The position numbers and the translations under genes were made by a program. The notes beneath the pieces are model-generated. The model was not told the origin of the DNA and searched no databases. It worked only from the letters and a program-made list of their open reading frames with translations. Positions 26,914-39,517 of a stretch of 45,202 bases of DNA are shown here, in pieces. Positions within the stretch are counted from its first letter, which is position 1, and each line of letters opens with the position of its first letter. Source of the DNA: a virus; IMG/VR virus record IMGVR_UViG_3300023179_000181, positions 1 to 45,202 of that record; one strand, written 5' to 3'.

Positions 26914-27459
26914 ATGCTATCATATCAAGGTTATTTAATTGCTGCTAATCCTACCAACCCGCGAGATAATTTAAGTAATAGTGTTATTTTAATTTGTCAA
27001 CATAATAATAAAACTACCTACGGTCTACAGATAAACAATCCATATCCTGATTTACAGCTTGATAGCATTATGGCCGGTATGGGTCTTTATGGTGAAACCA
27101 ATGTTCCAGTTTATCACGGCGGCAATTTAAAAAACGATAAAATTCAAGTTATACATACTACAGACTGGATGGGTATGAGTAGCCAACGCCTAACAGATGA
27201 TCTAGCTATCACGGGCGACGTCAGTGTGCTAACAGCTATTGCTGCCAACGAAGGACCTGAAAAATACAAAGCCTGTGCTGGATTTTGGGCGTGGGAACCG
27301 GGAATGTTAGCTGAACAGATTAATGGTGGCGATAATGTTGTTCATAAATGGGAAACAACCACTTCTACAGTAGACTTGGTATTTGATACATCGAGTCAAG
27401 ATAGCTGGACTAAAACTATCGAAGCATCGGCCCGCAATACTATTGATGCTTGGTTTTAA
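26914..27459 (+). CDS. AlgH/YqgE family (UPF0301) protein
   Basis: A 181-aa protein. MLSYQGYLIAANPTNPRDNL followed by SVILICQHN is the YqgE start (LIAxP...F..SVI.IC.H). GLQINNP corresponds to GLIIN(K/R)P; VPVYHGG to the V..GGP motif; DVSVLTAIAANEGPEKYKAC and then AGFWAWEPGMLAEQI to the G.AGW.PGQLE.EI block. It has the usual family length (about 180-190). Bacterial YqgE/AlgH function is unclear. The start is put at 26914 because the ATG at 26905 overlaps the late core. The stop overlaps gp41 convergently by 4 bp. Confidence 0.8.
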   Translation: MLSYQGYLIAANPTNPRDNLSNSVILICQHNNKTTYGLQINNPYPDLQLDSIMAGMGLYGETNVPVYHGGNLKNDKIQVIHTTDWMGMSSQRLTDDLAITGDVSVLTAIAANEGPEKYKACAGFWAWEPGMLAEQINGGDNVVHKWETTTSTVDLVFDTSSQDSWTKTIEASARNTIDAWF

Positions 27460-28928
27460 TCCTTTTCAGGATTTAGGTTAGGCATTGAATTTAAGAATTT
27501 TCTAATACTAGGCACAGTATCCGCTTTTGGTTTACCTACACTAATCCCTTTAGTAGGATCAACTTCTCTAATTTCTCCTGTTTCGGGATCGGTGGTTGTA
27601 CTAACTGTACTAGTGCGTTTTAGTCCTCCGTAGATACTGCCCGATGTGGGATTTGGCCTTCCGCCGCCACCTTGACTCAGGCTAGGTTGCGGGTCAGCAT
27701 CATCACCGAGGTCTGTAATCTTTAGTGTATCGACATTAAACTCGAGATCAACTTTTTGTCCAACACCCGAACTGCTACGAGTTTTCATAAACTGTATTTG
27801 ATAACGGCCGCGCTCTTTCATAGCACGACTTGTAAAAATACCAATCACATTATCTGCTGTCTGAATCTTACTCAGCCCGCCTGAGATATGACTATGATCA
27901 AATTCAATTTCTTCTACTGCGCTACGATTCAACTGGCTGGCTGTTACTACAATACAGCCTGTTTCCATAGCTAAATTTCTAAGTTCTTCAGACACATATT
28001 TGTCCTTAACAAACAGATCACTTGGCGAAACCTTGACAGATAGAGGCATCATAAGGTCTAAGTAGTCGACTAATAAAATGTCAGGTTTTAGACCTGTTTT
28101 GACCTGATATTCCTTCAAAAACGACCTTAAATCGTTACAATTCTTGCCAGAAGGCATGTATTTTATCTGGATTCCTCCTGCTCGCTTGCCCAGCATTTTA
28201 ACCTTCATTTCTACATCATCTAACTGTTTAAAGATGTCGCGTGTAGTAACTCCAGTTACCATACTGTCGATACGCATACCCACTAACTCTTCCGAAAGTT
28301 CAAATGTAAAGTAGATTACATTCAACCCTTGTTGAGCAAAGTTTACGCCCAAGTTTGCTAAGAATAGCGACTTACCGCCGCCTGATCCAGCACACCAAAT
28401 ATCTAACTCACCACGCTTAAAGCCGCCATACAATTTCTTATCAACACTGGGCCAACCTGTGCTAATTTGTCCGTTGTTATCTTTAAGTTTCATCAAACGA
28501 GCACGAGGATCTTTCCAGTAGTCTGTGCCCATGTCTTTTTGTAGACTAATCTGAGTGGCCTCTTTAATCATCTTTTCCACAGGGCCATAATCACCCTCTT
28601 CGAGCAGATCTGCGGACTTTAGAATCGCTCGCTCAAGTCCTTTGTGTCTGCTGAATTGCTCAAATTCATTGAGCAGCCATTCGTAGTTTTCTTTGGGCAA
28701 TTGTGCTGGATTCAGATCCACCTTACAACTGGCATTCACAATAGATTGTTCGGGCATAACCTTATACTGATCAACATACTTGGTTATGAACTCAGCAGTA
28801 TCTTGTAGTTTCTGATCAAAATTCTTTGGATCAAAAATGCTTTGGCAGCGTACAAATGTTTCAGCATCAGATAGAAACATTTCAAGATAAAGTTTTTGTA
28901 TATCGTAACTATAATTCGGTTTATTCAT
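27456..28928 (-). CDS. 41: Replicative DNA helicase, T4 gp41 type (DnaB family)
   Basis: A 490-aa protein. The N-terminal helical domain (1-150) is followed by the RecA-like core: Walker A AGSGGGKSLFLANLGVN at about 190, Walker B ILLVDYLDLM, then VVTASQLNRS and MKTRSSSGVG with the arginine-finger region. The C-terminal 80 residues are a Gly/Pro/Thr-rich linker and tail. In T4 this hexamer unwinds DNA at the fork with gp61 primase, whose gene directly precedes it here with an 8-bp overlap. Confidence 0.92.
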   Translation of the reverse strand: MNKPNYSYDIQKLYLEMFLSDAETFVRCQSIFDPKNFDQKLQDTAEFITKYVDQYKVMPEQSIVNASCKVDLNPAQLPKENYEWLLNEFEQFSRHKGLERAILKSADLLEEGDYGPVEKMIKEATQISLQKDMGTDYWKDPRARLMKLKDNNGQISTGWPSVDKKLYGGFKRGELDIWCAGSGGGKSLFLANLGVNFAQQGLNVIYFTFELSEELVGMRIDSMVTGVTTRDIFKQLDDVEMKVKMLGKRAGGIQIKYMPSGKNCNDLRSFLKEYQVKTGLKPDILLVDYLDLMMPLSVKVSPSDLFVKDKYVSEELRNLAMETGCIVVTASQLNRSAVEEIEFDHSHISGGLSKIQTADNVIGIFTSRAMKERGRYQIQFMKTRSSSGVGQKVDLEFNVDTLKITDLGDDADPQPSLSQGGGGRPNPTSGSIYGGLKRTSTVSTTTDPETGEIREVDPTKGISVGKPKADTVPSIRKFLNSMPNLNPEKD

Positions 28929-29922
28929 TGAGATTCTCTAATTTCTTAGCAAGGAGTTGCATTTTTATCTTGTTGTCTTCACAGTAGTGTAGTATCGTGA
29001 ACAGGGTATAAAGTTGTCCAAATTTTATACGGGCATCGGCTACATCCTTAATGCCTTCGCCCCACTCGGGTAAACTTACAGACCAACCGTTCTTAACAGC
29101 GTGGTCTATCATTTTTGCTCCCGGGCGATCTCTATCCGGTACGCAGATAACTTTTTTACCTAAGGCATTTATTCTAGCAATTTGAACATCGTTGGGTTCG
29201 TTGGTCATAATTGCTACACCATCAACCGCTAACGCATCAAATTGTCCTTCGACGACTATAACATATTTGCGCTCGTATGTTTGACGATCGATATTAAACA
29301 CATAGCCGCTTTGACTGTCTGTAAGATACTTAGGTTTTCCTGGGGTAATTTTTCGACCAGTAAATCCTACAATCACATCGTTTTGATAAAATGGAATGAC
29401 TACACGATCAGTATACCCCGGGCTTGTGCTCCACATAAACATAGGATCTAATGGATCAAATCCTCTTTTTAAGACATAGTCTATCACAGGGGTAAGTTGT
29501 TTTAGTATTTCTTGATCTTCGGTATTTGATATCCAATGTTGTATTGGATGTGTATTTTTAGGTAGTTCTATTTCTTTAAGATCAAATGTTAACTCTTTGT
29601 ATGTAGCGGGTTGATCTTCTTTGAGCTTTAGAGCATATAAGCCAAGTTTGCTAATCTTCTCATCAGGCATACCTAGCCAACGAAATAGATCTTTGGTGTT
29701 TTTGCTTAGAAGTTTACCCGGCGACCAGCCTGCTTTAAATCCGCAATTGAAACAGTGATAGTTCCAGGCATCGCCATTTATGATTACACCACCCCTTTGA
29801 CGAGTGTCCCGACCTTCGCCCCGATGATAACAACAAGCAGCATCAAAACTAATCCAACCGCCTGAAGTGTTTTTTCTTCGCGGTGGGAGTGTTGCTAGTA
29901 ACGCTGCCTGTATTTCATTCAT
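28921..29922 (-). CDS. 61: DNA primase, T4 gp61 type
   Basis: A 333-aa protein. The N-terminal zinc ribbon (CCYHRGEG...YHCFNCGF) contacts template. A TOPRIM core follows: VIVVEGQFDALAVDGVAIM with the catalytic Glu, then VICVPDRDRPG with the Asp-x-Asp. It makes RNA primers with the gp41 helicase. It overlaps the helicase start by 8 bp. Confidence 0.9.
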   Translation of the reverse strand: MNEIQAALLATLPPRRKNTSGGWISFDAACCYHRGEGRDTRQRGGVIINGDAWNYHCFNCGFKAGWSPGKLLSKNTKDLFRWLGMPDEKISKLGLYALKLKEDQPATYKELTFDLKEIELPKNTHPIQHWISNTEDQEILKQLTPVIDYVLKRGFDPLDPMFMWSTSPGYTDRVVIPFYQNDVIVGFTGRKITPGKPKYLTDSQSGYVFNIDRQTYERKYVIVVEGQFDALAVDGVAIMTNEPNDVQIARINALGKKVICVPDRDRPGAKMIDHAVKNGWSVSLPEWGEGIKDVADARIKFGQLYTLFTILHYCEDNKIKMQLLAKKLENLNE

Positions 29923-29957: not shown

Positions 29958-30800
29958 TTAACTTCTATATAGTAGTTTATCAAATGTACCGCGGTAGGTT
30001 TGATTATCGCGGTTATCAATATCCAATGGACCTTTATCTGGTATAACCATAATCTGGATATATGAGTAAACCCCATTAAAATTGATATAGTCAACACCGG
30101 TAAAACCTGTGTATGTTTGAGTTGATACAGTTGACCATTTATTGAGATCGTCAGCTTCGTTATTTAAAGTTGCCTGGACAAGGACTGTGCCTTTAAATCC
30201 TGACATATAAAAGGCTGCTGTATGTAAAGCACTATTACTGTTATATTCCGGATGAGCCCAAAGGGCGCGAGTTTTATATTCGTACAGTTGACTATCGGGG
30301 TTATAGCTAATTTGAAAATCTTCGACTTCGATACTAGGTTGTAGTACAGGACGACTATCGTTTAACAGTTGTATTGTTCCTGCTATACCGTAATAGGTAT
30401 TAGCATAGGTAGGCATATAAGATCCATCGCTGTCTAATTGCTTAACTACAAATTGGTAACTGCTCTTAGGTAAATCAAGTGTATCGCTTTCATCAAGTGT
30501 TAATAGTGCTAGCCCTCTTGTGCTGGTGGTTACCCCATCGTCGAGGATTGACAACTCTTTTTCAACCAGCAAACGCTGACTTACTGCATCAAACATTGAA
30601 AATACAAAAGTTTGAGTATTGCTTACAGAAATACGCTTTTGATCACTGTTTTTAAATTGTATACGGACCTTATTTTTTAATCCCTTTTGAATTTTAAGTT
30701 CGTGCTGATACATGACTTGATTGACTCCTCGTGTAATAGGATCCGAATCTAATAGAATATCGATATTATTCTGGTATAAATAGACTGGTAAATTATTCAT
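29958..30800 (-). CDS. Virion structural protein of T4-like marine phages
   Basis: A 280-aa beta-rich protein. MNNLPVYLYQNNIDILLDSD, then QHELKIQKGLKNKVRIQFKN and DQKRISVS, follow the pattern of small tail/baseplate-associated proteins in T4-like cyanophages (short start strand, K-G-x-x-N, N-A-D-Q-K). A late core ends 6 nt before the ATG, which supports late expression from a leaderless mRNA. Exact place in the virion is unknown. Confidence 0.65.
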   Translation of the reverse strand: MNNLPVYLYQNNIDILLDSDPITRGVNQVMYQHELKIQKGLKNKVRIQFKNSDQKRISVSNTQTFVFSMFDAVSQRLLVEKELSILDDGVTTSTRGLALLTLDESDTLDLPKSSYQFVVKQLDSDGSYMPTYANTYYGIAGTIQLLNDSRPVLQPSIEVEDFQISYNPDSQLYEYKTRALWAHPEYNSNSALHTAAFYMSGFKGTVLVQATLNNEADDLNKWSTVSTQTYTGFTGVDYINFNGVYSYIQIMVIPDKGPLDIDNRDNQTYRGTFDKLLYRS

Positions 30801-30812: not shown

Positions 30813-30819
30813 TTTGACG

Positions 30820-31203
30820 ATGTTGAGTCCTGCCAAGTTCCAAGAACTATACCCATTTGTTTCATGTATAAAATCTAATGATATAGAGTATGTAGGTATA
30901 GTAATAAATTTTGACAACTATGTTGCCAGTATATACGATATTTCCAGTGTTCGATCTGAAGCCGAAAAAAAATACCTGTTAGAAATGGGTGATGTCTGGT
31001 GGTGGGAAAGTAATCGTAAAATTCCAATTAATATTTTTTTGAAACAAGAGATGTTCCCTTTTAGGTATTCCATTAAAACTTTCAACAGTAAAGACGTAGA
31101 AGTAATATTCGGCCCAACAGTTAATCTAGGCGATATAGCCGAAAAAAGAATTAAACGAAAATCTATACAGTTAGTTAGAAACCCTAAGAAAACTCGTAGC
31201 TAA
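30820..31203 (+). CDS. Conserved-looking protein, unknown function
   Basis: A 127-aa protein (MLSPAKFQELYPFVSCIKSN...). The ATG at 30820 is preferred to an in-frame TTG at 30814. A beta-rich first half (VGIVINFDNYVASIYDI) and a basic C-terminus (EKRIKRKSIQLVRNPKKTRS). Similar proteins are found in marine T4-like phages, as I recall. There is no clear ribosome site. It overlaps the convergent minus gene by 20 bp. Confidence 0.6.
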   Translation: MLSPAKFQELYPFVSCIKSNDIEYVGIVINFDNYVASIYDISSVRSEAEKKYLLEMGDVWWWESNRKIPINIFLKQEMFPFRYSIKTFNSKDVEVIFGPTVNLGDIAEKRIKRKSIQLVRNPKKTRS

Positions 31204-31753
31204 TTGATTCACAGATTAAATTCATTTGAACTACAACTACCATAGCGTAAGCTGTAGCGTGACTTTTCTTAAAGAAGTACTCATCACCCTCAGGTTTTAT
31301 CCAAACCTCGTTCATCACCGTAGTCCAATCTTTCCCAATCAGATAGCGTTTCGCGGGGCGAATCATTGCCAAAACTGCCGCTAGTTGGGGTATTGTCCTT
31401 GGTTTCATTTCTCTTAAGATTGAACCATGTCCGTTGACGTGAAATAGTAAGTTGACGAAATCGTCCTGTTCCAAAAGTTCCCATAGCGGTTCGGTCTCCA
31501 TTAATGTTTTGAGATGAGTTTCATCTCGCACATCTTTATATATGCCAACATTTAAAAAATCGATCTTAAAATAGCCTCTGTCTTCGGCTTCTTTGTAGTT
31601 AATGCTGGCAGTACCTGTAAGTGGATTCACAGGAATACTATGACAATAAACTCCAGACTTATGTTTAGTTCCATCCTCTAAAGTCGCAGGAATGTGTTTG
31701 ATAATATCAAGCACTGTGGTCCTATCAGCAAAATCAATATCAATATCCGGCAT
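31184..31753 (-). CDS. Miniature DNA polymerase III alpha (DnaE)-like protein
   Basis: A 189-aa protein that reads as a compressed DnaE palm. MPDIDIDFADR (Asp 3/5/7) matches the PDxDxDFxxxR catalytic motif. HKSGVYCHSIPVNPL aligns with HAAGVVI...PL. GYFKIDFLNVG carries Asp65 at the place of the third catalytic Asp (K-x-DFLGL). LWELLEQDDFVNLLFHVNGH, then LREMKPRTIPQLAAVLAMIR with P, matches the ELL..GDT.G.FQ...L...KP.S...L.AL.RPG block, and FFKKSHATAYAMVVV matches FNKSHAAAYAL. PHP, fingers and beta-binding domains are missing. Similar mini-proteins exist in T4-like marine phages. Overlaps the HldE kinase gene by 14 bp. Confidence 0.75.
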   Translation of the reverse strand: MPDIDIDFADRTTVLDIIKHIPATLEDGTKHKSGVYCHSIPVNPLTGTASINYKEAEDRGYFKIDFLNVGIYKDVRDETHLKTLMETEPLWELLEQDDFVNLLFHVNGHGSILREMKPRTIPQLAAVLAMIRPAKRYLIGKDWTTVMNEVWIKPEGDEYFFKKSHATAYAMVVVVQMNLICESISYEFS

Positions 31754-32525
31754 TTCTTATCTCATCGTAGCTCGGGGCATAACATCCGAGATGTTGTACA
31801 GTTATGCTTGCAGCTGTATTAGCAAACATTATACTTTTTTCTAAATCTTTTGTATATAGATATTGAACAGCAAACGCAGATAAAAATGTATCCCCGGCAC
31901 CGCAGACATCTGCTACTTCAACACTCGGAGCAGGACATTGAATATTGTGATGTGGAATACTGGCTCCTTTAGGTCCTTGTGTAATGATTAATCCAGAACA
32001 CTCGCTGGTAATTAGCCGTGATTCAGATTCGTTTATTTTTACCCAGGCACCTTGGAATAGTTCAAGATTAGTTTTTTTGGTATCTATGAAAATCGGAATT
32101 TTTTCTGCTCCGGCCATTCTTACTATGTCTATAATCATGCTCTCGGTTAACGTACCTTTGTTGTAGTCGCTGATAACCACGGCATGGAAACTATTAAAAT
32201 TTAAATGATTAACAGTAGTAGGTTGACTACGATTGTCGTTATCAATTCTTACGATATGCTGTTTGCTACGAATATCAATCAACCGTGTTTTGACACTGGT
32301 AGCCTCTGATATGTAGGTCACATCGCATCCAAGATTTTCTAAGTTAACTTTAACATTTCTTGCCATGCCGGGGCGTTCTTCTTTATGAGAATATTTGAAC
32401 ACTGGCACAGGTGCTTCGGGACTTATTCTATCAACCGTTCCAAATTGATAGATATCGAGGCAATCATCTCCGATTAATAATATTTTGAATGGTGTTTGTA
32501 GTTGAATAGCTTCCAACTCTGTCAT
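31740..32525 (-). CDS. hldE: Heptose-7-phosphate kinase (HldE N-domain, PfkB family)
   Basis: A 261-aa PfkB/ribokinase-family enzyme. ILLIGDDCLDIYQFGTVDRI and SPEAPVPVFKYSHKEERPGM are the HldE/RfaE1 signature (GD...D.Y..G...RISPEAPVPV...E..PGGA.N). DVCGAGDTFLSAFA is the C-terminal catalytic motif. It would phosphorylate D-glycero-D-manno-heptose 7-phosphate at C1. In bacteria this domain is fused to the adenylyltransferase; here the two are separate genes overlapping by 62 bp, in reversed order. Slightly shorter than the bacterial domain (about 310 aa). Confidence 0.85.
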   Translation of the reverse strand: MTELEAIQLQTPFKILLIGDDCLDIYQFGTVDRISPEAPVPVFKYSHKEERPGMARNVKVNLENLGCDVTYISEATSVKTRLIDIRSKQHIVRIDNDNRSQPTTVNHLNFNSFHAVVISDYNKGTLTESMIIDIVRMAGAEKIPIFIDTKKTNLELFQGAWVKINESESRLITSECSGLIITQGPKGASIPHHNIQCPAPSVEVADVCGAGDTFLSAFAVQYLYTKDLEKSIMFANTAASITVQHLGCYAPSYDEIRNAGY

Positions 32526-32865
32526 AATAAATTACCTTAGAACAATATTTTTCTGCTGTGCTTGCTGCGCCTTTCCAGTCGCTGCCTTTTACATAAACAT
32601 CGGGTTGATATTCTTTCATAATCTCAGCAAGTTCTTCTTTGCTGTCAAATAACATGACGGTGTCAACTGCTCGAAGATTATATAAGAATAATTTTCTATC
32701 TTCTTGATTGTTTATGGGTCTTGACTCGCCTTTAAGTTCTTGTACTCTACGGTCGGTATCAATAGCAACTAATAATTGATCTCCTTGACTCCGAGCAAAA
32801 TTTAAAAGTTCTAAATGACCTCTGTGAAGTATATCAAAGGTGCCATTAACCATTACTCTTACCAC
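32464..32865 (-). CDS. hldE: Heptose-1-phosphate adenylyltransferase (HldE C-domain)
   Basis: A 133-aa cytidylyltransferase-like enzyme. NGTFDILHRGHLELLNFARS holds the HxGH nucleotide-binding motif; VAIDTDRRVQELKGESRPIN and then PDVYVKGSDW match RfaE2 (LKG..RP....R...L, KG.DY). VGSYSTTNTIQNI is the terminal S-T-T..I motif. It would convert heptose-1-phosphate to ADP-heptose. The start overlaps the HldD gene by 7 bp, and its 3' end overlaps the kinase gene by 62 bp. Confidence 0.85.
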   Translation of the reverse strand: MVRVMVNGTFDILHRGHLELLNFARSQGDQLLVAIDTDRRVQELKGESRPINNQEDRKLFLYNLRAVDTVMLFDSKEELAEIMKEYQPDVYVKGSDWKGAASTAEKYCSKVIYYDRVGSYSTTNTIQNIINRR

Positions 32866-33638
32866 GGTATAGTCCTAACTGTTTTAGTCATGTCTGCCTT
32901 AGTATAAGTTTGATATTGATGTTTAAGATTTTCGGGCATTGGGATATATTCAACACGAGCATTATATTTGTCGGCAATCATTCTCGCTACATTTTCAAAA
33001 CTTGTTGCTAGACCGGTACCTACATTGTAAATTCCACTTACAGGAATATCAAAGAATCGCTTATGAATATTAATAACTTCATCAACATGTACAAAGTCTC
33101 TGTAAAAATTTTCACTGCCTTCAAACAATTTAATAATACCCGTTTCTTTGGCTTGTTTTTCAAATTTATGATAAGGGCTAGCTTGATTGCCTTTGTGATC
33201 CTCGTGAGGGCCATAGACATTAAAATATCTAAATCCCTGTACACGAATATTTTCAAAATGTGTCTTGTTAGCTTCTACATGTCGATCAAATAGATACTTG
33301 CTCCAAGCATAAGGAGTTTTTGGGTCAACGGGGCTATCTTCTTTAAATTCTTTGTTTAATCCGTAGACGCTGGCACTGCTAGCATACTGTAAATTTACTT
33401 TGTTAATCTGACAGGCCATGAGCATGATACAGCTAAAGTCATGGTTTTGTTTCATAACTTTTTCTACATCAGTTTCGGTGGTGCTGGTAATAGCACCAAG
33501 GTGAATACACCAATCAAGCCCTTCCACCTCTGGAGGCTCATCACCCCAGTCATAAAAACTTAGTTCATGCTCATCCTTCAAAGCATTGACCATATTTTGA
33601 CCAATAAAACCTTTATAGCCGGTAATTAGTATTTTCAT
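32859..33638 (-). CDS. hldD: ADP-heptose 6-epimerase (HldD), short form
   Basis: A 259-aa extended SDR enzyme. Rossmann motif ILITGYKGFIGQNMV at 3-17, HLGAITSTTETD (the HldD-type GA.S.TTE.D), SSASVYG, and catalytic YAWSKYLFD (YxxxK). GFRYFNVYGPHEDHKGNQAS and FYRDFVHVDEV match HldD. It would epimerise ADP-D-glycero to ADP-L-glycero-D-manno-heptose, the LPS core precursor. It is about 50 residues shorter than E. coli HldD and ends soon after YQTYTKADM, so the last helices are missing. Confidence 0.85.
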   Translation of the reverse strand: MKILITGYKGFIGQNMVNALKDEHELSFYDWGDEPPEVEGLDWCIHLGAITSTTETDVEKVMKQNHDFSCIMLMACQINKVNLQYASSASVYGLNKEFKEDSPVDPKTPYAWSKYLFDRHVEANKTHFENIRVQGFRYFNVYGPHEDHKGNQASPYHKFEKQAKETGIIKLFEGSENFYRDFVHVDEVINIHKRFFDIPVSGIYNVGTGLATSFENVARMIADKYNARVEYIPMPENLKHQYQTYTKADMTKTVRTIPW

Positions 33639-33994
33639 TTTTGACTATCACCTTTACCAACACGATAGTTGTCTTCTACGCTGTCTGGAGTGCTAACTTC
33701 AATAATTGTTCCGGCCTCTAGACATTCAATTTGATGTGGCTGACAGGGAGGATTGTGCCATACTGCGCCATCAATTACCTCTTTTTCATGGACCTCTGCG
33801 GTATTTGTATCAATCCAACGGATGATAAATTTACCCGACTGTACATACCAAGTTTCTTCTTTATCTTTGTGGAAGTGCATGCTGAACTTTTTACCTTTTT
33901 CAAAGTTCATAAACTTTCCACAATATTTGTCGTTGGTTGCCCAAATAAATTCTGAGCCCCACCCTTTAGGCACCAATCCTTTTAACTGTGTCAT
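33635..33994 (-). CDS. Cupin, mannose-6-phosphate isomerase-like
   Basis: A 119-aa protein, MTQLKGLVPKGWGSEFIWAT..., starting in the TAATG overlap at 33994. KKFSMHFHKDKEETWYVQSG and then HNPPCQPHQIECLEAG are the two cupin motifs (HxHxxxxE and PxxxxH). K-G-W-G-x-E at the start resembles the C-terminal domain of type II phosphomannose isomerase. It probably acts on a sugar phosphate or nucleotide sugar in the same pathway as the heptose genes. The 3' end overlaps hldD by 4 bp. Confidence 0.75.
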   Translation of the reverse strand: MTQLKGLVPKGWGSEFIWATNDKYCGKFMNFEKGKKFSMHFHKDKEETWYVQSGKFIIRWIDTNTAEVHEKEVIDGAVWHNPPCQPHQIECLEAGTIIEVSTPDSVEDNYRVGKGDSQK

Positions 33995-34509
33995 TATTGT
34001 TTCCACCATTCTTCCCATGGAAATACAAACCATGATTCATCTTCTAGTCGATTGAAGTTATGCGAACTAAAATCAACATTTTGAAATTCACTGTTTTCGT
34101 TATTTAAAAGTGTAGCAAATCGTACATTGTTATTCCAGATATCTTGCCATTTAGAATCGTTAGGCAAACATGATGACTGCCAATCTTTTACTAACCAATT
34201 TAGCGTGGCTCCGGAGTCATTAATATTATCAACTACTAGTATGTTTACCGGACTTTCGCTATCATAGCCAAAGGCATCTTCGGACATCCAACAATTTGTT
34301 TCGCAGTCATTTTCGTCGCCGTGCCTAAGACTAATTTTAACCGTATGCATAGGCACATCAAAATAATGACTTAACATTAACGCAGGAACTAGACCCCCTC
34401 GTGTAATTCCTACAATGTAGTCAGGTCTAAAATCTGTAGAGGCTATCTGTCTACAGATATCATTGACCATATGTTTGATGTTTCGGTTTGTTAAAATTTT
34501 ATAATTCAT
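33994..34509 (-). CDS. Phosphoribosyltransferase
   Basis: A 171-aa type I PRTase. PDYIVGITRGGLVPALMLSH is the PPi-loop strand (IVGIxRGG), and NILVVDNINDSGATLNWLV is the PRPP-binding motif (VVDDI.DTG.T). The layout resembles xanthine-guanine (Gpt) or related purine PRTases, which salvage bases into nucleotides. It overlaps neighbours at both ends (TAATG and ATGA). Confidence 0.8.
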   Translation of the reverse strand: MNYKILTNRNIKHMVNDICRQIASTDFRPDYIVGITRGGLVPALMLSHYFDVPMHTVKISLRHGDENDCETNCWMSEDAFGYDSESPVNILVVDNINDSGATLNWLVKDWQSSCLPNDSKWQDIWNNNVRFATLLNNENSEFQNVDFSSHNFNRLEDESWFVFPWEEWWKQ

Positions 34510-36370: not shown

Positions 36371-36874
36371 TTACCAGCACTTGCTGTAGTCAACTAACTC
36401 ACTTTGTCGGCTAACCTCTTTGACAAAATAAGCACATTGAGGATTATCTCCGGCATGCAGCGGTGTACAAAGAAGTTGCCCGGGTCTCATTTTAGGAAAA
36501 TACCATTTTACATCTTGATAAACATCTATAATATCAATATCTAAAAACTCAGGTCTAAAACTACTTAGCGGATTAAAGCAAAATGTTTTAAATCCCCTGT
36601 CATTTAGGCTGGTTAATGGCAGTACTTCCATATCAGGGCCCTCAGGGTCACCAACAATGGTACACCAATCAAGTGGCATTGTAATTTCGTGAGGGCCAAC
36701 TTTTAGTACAACTGCTGGCCCTGTAAAACTTTCTAAAAAGATTAAAGGAATAAAAAAATGATCTGGATTACTGTTATCGGAGTTATCAAGAACAGCAAAT
36801 CGCATGTCCTCATCAATCTCTTCGGGGAGATCATTTAAGAAAAAAGTTCGGTCTTCTAAGGTCAAAATCTGCAT
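36371..36874 (-). CDS. Conserved protein encoded next to UvsW
   Basis: A 167-aa acidic, beta-rich protein (MQILTLEDRTFFLNDLPEEI...). PLDWCTIVGDPEGPDMEVLP, then LTSLNDRGFKTFCFNPLSSF, and IDVYQDVKWYFPKMRPGQLL are likely conserved blocks. It starts in a TAATG overlap with uvsW, which suggests coupled expression. The same partner of UvsW appears in marine T4-like phages from memory; function unknown. Confidence 0.7.
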   Translation of the reverse strand: MQILTLEDRTFFLNDLPEEIDEDMRFAVLDNSDNSNPDHFFIPLIFLESFTGPAVVLKVGPHEITMPLDWCTIVGDPEGPDMEVLPLTSLNDRGFKTFCFNPLSSFRPEFLDIDIIDVYQDVKWYFPKMRPGQLLCTPLHAGDNPQCAYFVKEVSRQSELVDYSKCW

Positions 36875-38337
36875 TATTGATATTTCACTTTCTCAATCGT
36901 AAACGGGTACCAGGCTTCCTTATAGAATTTCTTACGCTCTGTAAGATGCCTCTTCGCGTACTTTGTAGACGCAGTGAAGTCCCAGATTTGGACAAAGTCT
37001 TTGTCGTCTGCCTTTCTAATGCCTCGCCCAATACTTTGTATAACCCTTGTAAAGCTCTTTCCGGGTTCCACCATAACCAAATTAAAAATACGAGGGATAT
37101 TAATACCCACAGCGGCCACACCATAAGTCGCCACAATAATCTTGTTGCTAGCAGTTTTAACTTCATCGTATTCTTCTTTTCTATCTTTGGTTTTTACTTT
37201 TCCTGATATGAATACTGAGTCTTGTAAATTCTCTGCTAAAAATTCACCACATTCAATTCTATCAACTAAGACAAGTGTATTTCCAGTATCCGCTATTTTA
37301 CTAATCACATTACTAATATACAACATTCTGTCATGGTTTGTCACGAGAAATTTTAATTCTTCGGCATAACTAGCAAATTCTCTAAATTCTGCTGTCTGTA
37401 TAATTTTTACATGACAGTTACTTAGAATTCCTTTTTCTTGTAATTTATGAGCGGCTACACGATGTACGACTTCGCCTAGACTTGCTCGCAAACTTTGAAA
37501 TTCGTGGTCTTGTTTTGGCACAGTCCCAGTTAATCCCCAGCGAATTGGAGTATTACAAAGATTATGTGTTAAAAGTTTTTTGAGTACATCGGCCTTGGCC
37601 ATATGTACCTCGTCGACCATAACGCAATTAACACCGTCTAACAATTCGGCAAGTGTTACTGCTTCATTTTCTTCGTCAAAATTCAGTGATTTTTTATCAA
37701 GAATGTTCAGACTTTGCCAAGTACAGATAGTATGTGTTTTATTAAGATCTTTTCGGTCGCCGTAGTAAACTCCGACATCAAGGCCACAGTTAACAAAGTC
37801 TTCTTCTGTTTGTTCGACAAGAGATTTATTCGGGACAATAGTGATTGTTCTACCATATTTTTCACAAATTTTCGCCAAAGTAGCAGTTGTAATTGTTTTG
37901 CCAAACCCTGTGGCAATTTCTTGAATACACTGAGGGTTTTCTAAAAATTTATTGATAACTTCAACTTGATCATCACGCAATCGAATTAGTTCGCCGGCAA
38001 AGCGATGACCCTCTGGCCATGTTTTTTCACCCCAAAAATCCTCAGAAATTTCGTCAAATTTGAGGTTCACAGGTCGGCGTAGGTCATCAACAGTGATGTC
38101 ATAATTTTTTGATTCTAAAATTTCTAGAACCTGCGGTAGCATTGACAAATAGGTTGTGCCGCCGAGGCCAAAAAACGAAACAGTACCATCCCACCGGCCT
38201 AATTTAAAGGCCGGTCTAAAGCGAGCAGTAGGATCTTCGTACTTAAATTTACGAACCAAGGCTTTACGCATGTCAAGATCTAAATTTTCAATCTTGACAT
38301 TAACTTCATCCTTGATAACAACTTTACAAGTTGGCAT
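36874..38337 (-). CDS. uvsW: UvsW-type SF2 DNA/RNA helicase
   Basis: A 487-aa superfamily 2 helicase. Motif I ATGFGKTIT at about 142, motif Ia IVPNKSLVEQT, motif II DEVH (VMVDEVHMAK), motif III GLTGT, and motif VI QSIGRGIRK with the arginine finger. The first 90 residues are the UvsW N-terminal domain (KIENLDLDMRKALVRKFKYE, RWDGTVSFF). In T4, UvsW remodels recombination and stalled-fork intermediates and removes R-loops at origins. Overlaps the preceding gene by 14 bp. Confidence 0.92.
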   Translation of the reverse strand: MPTCKVVIKDEVNVKIENLDLDMRKALVRKFKYEDPTARFRPAFKLGRWDGTVSFFGLGGTTYLSMLPQVLEILESKNYDITVDDLRRPVNLKFDEISEDFWGEKTWPEGHRFAGELIRLRDDQVEVINKFLENPQCIQEIATGFGKTITTATLAKICEKYGRTITIVPNKSLVEQTEEDFVNCGLDVGVYYGDRKDLNKTHTICTWQSLNILDKKSLNFDEENEAVTLAELLDGVNCVMVDEVHMAKADVLKKLLTHNLCNTPIRWGLTGTVPKQDHEFQSLRASLGEVVHRVAAHKLQEKGILSNCHVKIIQTAEFREFASYAEELKFLVTNHDRMLYISNVISKIADTGNTLVLVDRIECGEFLAENLQDSVFISGKVKTKDRKEEYDEVKTASNKIIVATYGVAAVGINIPRIFNLVMVEPGKSFTRVIQSIGRGIRKADDKDFVQIWDFTASTKYAKRHLTERKKFYKEAWYPFTIEKVKYQ

Positions 38338-39517
38338 AACGACTTTCTTGGTATTCGCTTGATTTACTATAATGAATAAAATTTTGACAATTTTTCACAA
38401 AATCTCGCAAAGTGTGGTGGCTAAAATATTCTGAAAAGCTAATTACTGAATTTACACTCAGCGGAGCCGCCAAAACTGTTTTTGGAAGTTTGGTGCTGAT
38501 TATCATATAGCGAGTTTTATCACTAATTGGATTATTAAGGTGATTGTTTTTTATAAAATCATTGAAATTTTTACCAGTATCGTTGGGTAAACGAAACAGA
38601 ACTGAGATTTCTTCATTTTTTACACCCATGGATTGTAACAGCGAATAACACTCTACAGTTTTTTCCATTTCGTGCCCACCAGGAATACAAAAAAGTCCAG
38701 GCTCGAGATATGTTATTATACAGCCGATGTCATTTAATGTAAATTTTCCACTATCGACCTTAAAATTTTCGCTAGGATCGGTGGTTAAAAAATCATATAA
38801 TAATTTATTAACATTATCTGACTTTAAAAAAGTATCTATGGCATCATCCCAGACAGTGACTCCATATTTTCTTGCTGTGAAAAGTGCTTCTGTCCAATCT
38901 TGAGTTTCAGTATTGGGTAAAATTGAGGGTAAATTTTTGAATTTTGGTTGATTATCTTCAATGACCAACATCGGTATGTAATTTTCTACATTTTTTACAA
39001 TGTTGTGATACTGAGCAGCGAGATTGTCAAATTCTTCATCGGTGGAAAAATTTTTTTTGGTCATAATTTCAAGGACCAAACCTATATTTGCTTCACTAAG
39101 GCTAAAAATCCAGGCTTTTTCTTCCTTGTCCCATAGGGCATAGTGATATCCTTTGAGGTTTGTCTTTTGTTCGCGTATAAATTGAACAAGACTCTCGTCA
39201 TAGGGAAACTCGACCTTGATACATTTGTTAAATTGACTATTTTTAACAATGCTGACACGGTAAGCACTGGGTACAGAACTACGAACAGGATACCTATACA
39301 AGGGATTATCCACATACGAGGTCAAATCTTGACCTACGGCAGTACTGATGCGAGGAAGATACCTTTTTAGAATTTTCAAAGCTAACAGACTTTGTTTTTC
39401 TGTAAAACTTGTGCCCATTATGTTAACTTGAAAGTTCAAACTTTCAACTACATTTTTGTCAAAGCGATTTACACCGCCTATGGCAGCAAGATTTTTAAGT
39501 ATATCTTCAATATACAT
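38324..39517 (-). CDS. Protein between uvsY and uvsW, possible HARP-like domain; function unknown
   Basis: A 397-aa protein (MYIEDILKNLAAIGGVNRFD...). Residues 85-150 (VSIVKNSQFNKCIKVEFPYD... YHYALWDKEEKAWIFSLSEA) form strands like the annealing-helicase HARP module, in which a short beta unit recognises branched DNA. The C-terminal half (EPGLFCIPGGHEME, SVLFRLPNDTGKNFNDFIKN) loosely recalls a helicase core without Walker motifs. Its place between UvsY and UvsW argues for a recombination role. The domain suggestion is tentative. Confidence 0.65.
   Translation of the reverse strand: MYIEDILKNLAAIGGVNRFDKNVVESLNFQVNIMGTSFTEKQSLLALKILKRYLPRISTAVGQDLTSYVDNPLYRYPVRSSVPSAYRVSIVKNSQFNKCIKVEFPYDESLVQFIREQKTNLKGYHYALWDKEEKAWIFSLSEANIGLVLEIMTKKNFSTDEEFDNLAAQYHNIVKNVENYIPMLVIEDNQPKFKNLPSILPNTETQDWTEALFTARKYGVTVWDDAIDTFLKSDNVNKLLYDFLTTDPSENFKVDSGKFTLNDIGCIITYLEPGLFCIPGGHEMEKTVECYSLLQSMGVKNEEISVLFRLPNDTGKNFNDFIKNNHLNNPISDKTRYMIISTKLPKTVLAAPLSVNSVISFSEYFSHHTLRDFVKNCQNFIHYSKSSEYQESRYANL

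Follow-up and report, generated by a model that had tools for sequence, protein, structure and literature searches.

A phage gene for the predicted C-terminal half of a trans-split, miniaturised DNA polymerase III alpha

In cyanobacteria, the α subunit of DNA polymerase III (Pol III; DnaE) is made from two genes, and their products are joined by a split intein. The split cyanobacterial DnaE is mentioned in PMC3919608. A split minimal Pol III α in group 2.2 jumbo phages was predicted by Iyer et al. 2021 (PMC7824862). In two other papers, single phage proteins are related to the same subunit: CBB_328 of vB_PcaM_CBB, 172 amino acids (aa) long, was called a truncated Pol III α (PMC5259590), and gp316 of Atu_ph07 was reported as a Pol III α-like protein (PMC6102473). 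MIJ3 carries a split family B polymerase with an intein, which is a different split (PMC6892783). The literature searched, with most subscription journals lying outside its coverage, yielded no biochemical study of a split phage Pol III.

Here, we analyzed a 45,202-base viral record (IMGVR_UViG_3300023179_000181; "the window" below means this whole stretch), which is probably a piece of a larger phage genome. A sequence-only reading had pointed to a 189-aa protein in it as a collapsed DnaE palm. The open reading frame (ORF) was confirmed (Table 1), and the motifs quoted for it are present in the order found in DnaE. The protein matched the PHROGs family phrog_11778, "DNA polymerase," with an E value of 7.5e-64 (residues 3 to 183 against 8 to 194 of 197) and, more weakly, the 1190-position "DNA polymerase" family phrog_405 (E 1.2e-7). 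The Pfam Pol III finger domain was found only below threshold (E 0.056, missing the family cut-off), the sequence match to solved Pol III structures was marginal (E 0.0092), and the hhalign probability against E. coli DnaE alone was 7.5% (E 0.0047). Since this DnaE-only comparison is weak, the identity of the protein rests on the phrog_11778 match, the motif anchors, and the fold. A tblastn scan at E ≤ 0.01 found it in 63 of 50,697 phage records, at coverage of at least 80% in 61 of them; these matches and the phrog_11778 E value argue that the motif order is not due to chance. The protein begins at the DxDxD strand and finishes past KSHxxxY, at ~190 aa as in the phrog_11778 family, and the length is uniform (180 to 219 aa in 243 of 249 trimmed matches). 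Judged by its sequence, it is the C-terminal half ("C half") of a trans-split, miniaturised Pol III α of family phrog_11778.

Table 1. Coordinates of the polymerase-half gene, its neighbors in the window, and DnaQ-type exonuclease genes at other loci.
Feature	Coordinates	Strand	Basis or remark
Polymerase-half gene	31184..31753	minus	ATG start, 189 aa
Convergent ORF	30814..31203	plus	phrog_11637, no named function, E 6.3e-32
280-aa protein between polymerase half and primase	29958..30800	minus	phrog_14467 "virion structural protein," E 8.3e-12
DNA primase, gp61 type	28921..29922	minus	phrog_47, E 1e-42
DnaB-like replicative helicase, gp41 type	27456..28928	minus	phrog_19, E 1e-72
Sugar-kinase gene	31740..32525		overlapped by 14 bases by the start of the polymerase-half gene, which it precedes
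Sugar cassette	31740..34509	minus	PfkB-like kinase, HldE-type nucleotidyltransferase, NAD-dependent epimerase, cupin, phosphoribosyltransferase
UvsW-like helicase	36874..38337	minus	phrog_16 "DNA helicase," E 3.4e-78
397-aa ORF between UvsW- and UvsY-like genes	38324..39517	minus	unmatched in PHROGs (E ≤ 0.001) and in Pfam (E ≤ 0.01)
DnaQ-type exonuclease	L006:2721-3542		family cut-off passed
DnaQ-type exonuclease	L089:2802-3620		family cut-off passed
DnaQ-type exonuclease	L090:2923-3729		family cut-off passed

The hosts of the RaK2-like and related phages that carry the C half are Klebsiella, Escherichia, Salmonella, Erwinia, Serratia, Cronobacter, Pectobacterium, and Xanthomonas. It was further found in PA5oct-like Pseudomonas phages, Atu_ph07, Phosso, SCTP-2, XacN1, the Stenotrophomonas phages RAS14 and CM1, one Vibrio phage, and, with genomes of only 141 kb, two Alishewanella phages. 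One of the latter, Slicko01, encodes both polymerase halves (L007 and L371); given the presence of the pair in 141-kb phages, the split polymerase is not restricted to jumbo genomes. PV036439 (E 9) was left out of the C-half matches as noise, and the SCTP-2 C half, used as query, gave no matches. Among IMG/VR relatives, at least 550 of 599 candidate stretches were confirmed. For the alignments, the minimum length was 165 aa for C ORFs and 145 aa for N-terminal half ("N half") ORFs, and exact duplicates were removed, which reduced the C ORFs from 249 to 204 and the N ORFs from 99 to 97. The 205 rows of the C alignment hold the window protein twice and comprise 203 distinct full-length relatives. 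In the databases, both halves are often labeled "hypothetical protein" or simply "DNA polymerase."

The Mg2+ ligands of E. coli DnaE are D401, D403, and D555, and they are conserved across the C family (PMC3919608). They correspond to D3, D5, and D65 of the window protein, so all three catalytic aspartates are kept, as had been noted from the sequence. Further along the chain, D7 corresponds to D405, H31 to H511, G34 to G514, K63 to K553, R132 to R639, P133 to P640, K163 to K758, H165 to H760, and Y169 to Y764, with anchors set by motif outside residues 36 to 135 of the window protein. Besides these aspartates, the chain has the motifs HxxGV, RP-x-K, and KxHxxxY. D405 is conserved in DnaE and is Asn in PolC (PMC3919608); the phage protein is thus marked, through D7, as DnaE type. 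The positions invariant in the window protein and nine phages with full-length tblastn matches include D3, D5, D7, H31, G34, P41, K63, D65, W91, R132, P133, K135, H165, and Y169. Across the 205 C rows, D3, D5, and D7 are kept in 203 (the other 2 have gaps there); H31, K63, D65, W91, R132, P133, H165, and Y169 are kept in every row; and position 163 has K (197 rows), R (6), or H (2). The conservation counts from IMG/VR are biased, since the search seeds themselves hold the motifs. When the 33 of 185 IMG/VR C rows without the DxDxD seed were considered, 31 kept the three aspartates and all 33 kept D65; likewise, all 24 C rows without a KSH-type seed kept H165 and Y169. The large internal deletions relative to DnaE that are described below could point to a decaying remnant of an acquired dnaE, but 203 distinct full-length relatives with uniform length and a near-invariant active site leave that explanation with a negligible probability, the lowest of those that we weighed.

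A pol β–type palm requires a GS motif for triphosphate binding. The GRGS of E. coli DnaE begins at residue 361, ahead of D401; GxGRGS is absent from the window chain, which starts at the equivalent of DnaE residues 399 to 400. In all 10 annotated relatives, PF07733 was detected above its family cut-off, each time at a genome site apart from the C half. These N-half ORFs encode 169 to 183 aa, and in most of them the C-terminal end reads GxGRGSSxxSYxLYLIGxHxVDSxxYxLDxxEFLK (alignment of 10). A profile of the 10 N halves matched E. coli α in the PDB (E 1.2e-7), and hhalign of the N half against E. coli DnaE alone gave a probability of 78.7% (E 1.7e-5). None of the 10 N halves retrieved by HMM departs from GxGRGS, and it is kept in all 97 N rows; only 3 of 79 IMG/VR N rows are without the GRGSS seed, and these 3 keep GxGRGS. 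The N half was not found within the 45-kb window, which is a fragment. A lone mini-enzyme was down-weighted, since the window chain is without half of the nucleotidyltransferase fold and the partner gene supplies it. Of the proposed collapsed DnaE palm, the palm thus stands, by family and predicted fold, while the single collapsed enzyme gives way to a half-fold whose complement is encoded, in relatives, by a separate gene.

In annotated phages, the two halves are inherited together. The RaK2 N half retrieved 60 records at E ≤ 1e-10 and the Slicko01 N half 2 more, bringing the N-half records to 62. Of the 62 named C-half records, 61 also contain the N half; the sole exception is PP728206, of 109,507 bases. 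Munch is the only N-half record without a named C-half match, and the remaining C-half record is probably this Salmonella phage, since the Salmonella count was one short. Among IMG/VR contigs longer than 100 kb, the N half was found in 6 of 9 C-half contigs and the C half in 8 of 14 N-half contigs, which are weaker counts; IMG/VR records may be fragments. Richer profiles recovered none of the three missing N halves and none of the six missing C halves there; the positive control, L214, was detected in both searches. The N half lies 21.5 to 25.2 kb from the family B polymerase gene in five of five relatives, and contig G007 ends 18.6 kb past that gene; its lack of an N half is thus accounted for by the contig stopping before the expected position. 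In a 359-kb IMG/VR contig (G014, locus L135), the N half is present and the C half was not detected, with the richer profile included. The N half is present in contig G005 (364 kb), which has a C half 68% identical to the window protein. Three XacN1-like loci from IMG/VR, of which two are identical, have the halves ~4 kb apart, with the N half first.

A fused form of the two halves was not seen among the 202 C ORFs, with at most 47 residues ahead of DxDxD, or among the 97 N ORFs, with at most 35 after GRGS, both measured stop to stop. The N half stops exactly 29 residues past GRGS in 82 of the 97 rows. Upstream of the C half, the stop-to-DxDxD distance is below 5 residues in 44 of 202 ORFs and 30 to 47 residues in 10 of 202, and in these 10 the length alone would be compatible with an Int-C. 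On the N side, a split intein is ruled out by the length of the tail, which measures 29 to 35 residues past GRGS in 97 of 97 ORFs. Since there is no room for an Int-N, the halves should function as separate chains.

The window protein was modeled with AlphaFold2 from 120 rows (the window and 119 of 184 eligible C rows), with a mean pLDDT of 92.6 and a pTM of 0.81; for the N half from locus L116, modeled from 79 rows (79 of 79 eligible), the values were 93.7 and 0.77. The best 16 Foldseek matches of the C-half model were all C-family polymerases (top E 9.3e-4). Using VIA-align, residues 1 to 186 of this model were superposed on E. coli DnaE 400 to 781 (2hnh) with a Z of 9.1 and an rmsd of 4.1 over 182 aligned residues. 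Among 555 chains aligned, the best 15 entries were C-family polymerases (Z 6.1 to 9.4) and the next entry scored 4.0; neither pol X nor another palm fold was among the entries listed. Since a Z of ~9 is middling on its own, the weight lies in the gap to the next entries and in the full coverage. The DnaE-palm fold suggested earlier is thus borne out by the predicted model, which is not an unrelated fold. The N-half model superposed on DnaE 278 to 393 (2hnh) through its residues 79 to 178, with a Z of 9.5 and an rmsd of 2.6 over 98 aligned residues, and all 14 of its fold matches were C-family entries (Z 7.4 to 11.5, the best being 5lew). The first ~78 residues of this N half (L116:3001-3534) were modeled with high confidence and have no structural match to DnaE.

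The C and N halves are predicted by these models to tile DnaE in complementary fashion. The split falls at about DnaE residues 394 to 399, just ahead of the catalytic strand, and D3, D5, D7, and D65 lie in or beside the predicted strands E4-8 and E64-68. The C half is much reduced: D7 and H31 are 24 residues apart versus 106 in DnaE (D405 to H511), P133 and K163 are 30 apart versus 118 (P640 to K758), and the portion of DnaE after about residue 781 is missing. From the domain borders, we take the first shortening to be mostly thumb and the second to be the middle of the fingers. The PHP, OB, and C-terminal domains are missing, and the thumb is almost absent from the C half, whose model covers DnaE 400 to 781 only. 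PHP had been described as gone, correctly; the fingers had been too, but their RP and KSHxxxY segments are kept and only middle stretches are cut. The near loss of the thumb would suit a split-palm nucleotidyltransferase with another substrate, acting as a terminal transferase or on a nucleotide, RNA, or protein. Given the agreement of the retained RP and KSHxxxY segments with bacterial DnaE and the location of the genes within the replication block, we consider such an activity improbable.

The C-terminal tail and PHP are the regions of α that bind β, τ, and ε. The phage chain has none of these regions, which is difficult to reconcile with a decoy or inhibitor of the host replisome, a role that had been suggested for it and with which its predicted structural likeness to bacterial DnaE would agree. 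Near-invariant catalytic residues and a co-inherited partner with the complementary half of the active site also disfavor a decoy, and we regard it as highly improbable. An obligate ε-like exonuclease partner was considered and rejected: a DnaQ-type exonuclease passed the cut-off in only 7 of 12 phages (7 of 10 annotated phages and neither of 2 IMG/VR relatives). In RaK2 and 121Q, the gene for this exonuclease adjoins that for UvsW; in the Vibrio phage, its neighbor encodes a P-loop NTPase.

The gene had been thought to lie outside the replication block, which does not hold. Downstream of it in the window, the order is the phrog_11637 ORF, the 280-aa protein, the primase, and the DnaB-type helicase; upstream, the sugar cassette and several ORFs are followed by UvsW-, UvsY-, UvsX-, and gp32-like single-stranded DNA binding protein (SSB) genes. 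The name UvsW was given from position and from the annotation of relatives. At its 3′ end, the phrog_11637 ORF shares 20 bases with the polymerase-half gene, and a small opposite-strand ORF occupies the same spot in 8 of 10 annotated relatives, as judged by position; by the same measure, at least one gene is found at the position of the 280-aa protein in eight syntenic relatives. The sugar cassette, with the polymerase half on one side and the UvsW-like gene on the other, is possibly a phage ADP-heptose-type pathway within the replication block. An annotated primase and/or helicase gene lies just downstream of the C half in 8 of 10 annotated relatives, XacN1 and RAS14 being different. In three of six phages (RaK2, Paride, and XacN1), an annotated clamp loader gene follows the N half within 2 kb; in Phosso and in the Vibrio phage, an AAA or P-loop ATPase gene is found at most 3.3 kb from it, and in Slicko01 its distance to the RFC-like gene is 8.5 kb. 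Such neighbors indicate that both halves tend to sit among replication genes.

A family B polymerase is encoded by all 10 annotated relatives and by all six IMG/VR relatives. Its coexistence in 10 of 10 phages, the primase, helicase, and often clamp loader neighbors, the almost lost thumb, and the strongly reduced fingers might all be expected of a noncatalytic replisome scaffold, a DnaE-like core that binds primer-template or nucleotide and passes DNA among primase, clamp loader, and polymerase B. However, the Mg2+ ligands, K63, R132, P133, H165, Y169, and the GxGRGS of the partner are invariant or nearly so across divergent phages, beyond what binding by itself would seem to need. We consider a scaffold unlikely, though the least unlikely of the alternatives.

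We favor, with a probability of roughly 75%, the reading that the window gene encodes the C-terminal subunit of a two-gene, trans-split mini C-family polymerase, the pair forming one active site and serving as an accessory polymerase at the fork; the heterodimer, its catalysis, and its role at the fork are what we infer. The carriers would be T4-superfamily phages, mostly jumbo, with a family B replicase alongside. The partner would supply the GxGRGS triphosphate-binding half of a pol β–like palm, and the window subunit would supply the metal-binding D3, D5, and D65 and the reduced fingers (R132, P133, and K135, and K163, H165, and Y169). The two chains may join noncovalently into one nucleotidyltransferase site of ~370 residues without PHP, thumb, OB, and C-terminal domains. 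As the thumb is nearly absent, processivity would probably be low or helped by neighboring proteins, and tethering at the fork could be provided by primase/helicase or clamp loader proteins. The pair would then extend primers, fill gaps, or bypass lesions, with polymerase B doing the bulk of synthesis. That a noncovalent, intein-free, and near-thumbless pair of ~180 aa each is in fact an active second polymerase within a T4-like, family B replisome has, in our estimate, an even chance.

If the pair is active, the active site of the bacterial replicase can function in a core of two subunits and ~370 residues with no PHP and almost no thumb, and some phages use polymerases of bacterial type and of archaeal/eukaryotic type at one fork. 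An active pair would also be a candidate model of the ancestral C-family form and, to our knowledge, the smallest C-family polymerase. Since the pair is small, conserved, and easily expressed, the minimal needs of C-family synthesis would be directly testable. Recognition of the two halves would improve the annotation of the many records in which they carry uninformative labels.

Compared with E. coli DnaE, the window protein has in common the palm and part of the fingers, with D401/D403/D405/D555, K553, R639-P640, and K758/H760/Y764; it differs in size (189 versus 1160 aa), in having the first half of the palm encoded by another gene, and in lacking PHP, OB, and C-terminal domains and almost all of the thumb. 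Unlike the split DnaE of cyanobacteria, none of the 97 phage N halves carries an Int-N-sized extension, so protein trans-splicing of the cyanobacterial type would not take place. Relative to phrog_11778, whose PHROGs entry consists of a name alone, no difference was found. CBB_328 has the length of an N half, and the N halves in the vB_PcaM_CBB and Atu_ph07 records are annotated as polymerase; by length and annotation, CBB_328 and gp316 thus appear to be the N half and not the C half. The closest system is the split Pol III of Iyer et al. 2021 (PMC7824862), in which, as here, an N-terminal NTP-binding unit and a C-terminal Mg- and template-binding unit are separately encoded, and the phage group, which includes Atu_ph07, also carries a family B polymerase, like the relatives studied here. 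From the architecture, the phage group, and Atu_ph07, the C-terminal unit described there would be phrog_11778. Set against the accessible part of that paper, the present analysis adds the break point, the co-inheritance count, the tiling of AlphaFold2 models by VIA-align, the intein check, the neighborhoods, and a 141-kb phage. Against the same part, the window protein shows no difference in kind from the split Pol III, and the window gene is a further example of a kind already described computationally.
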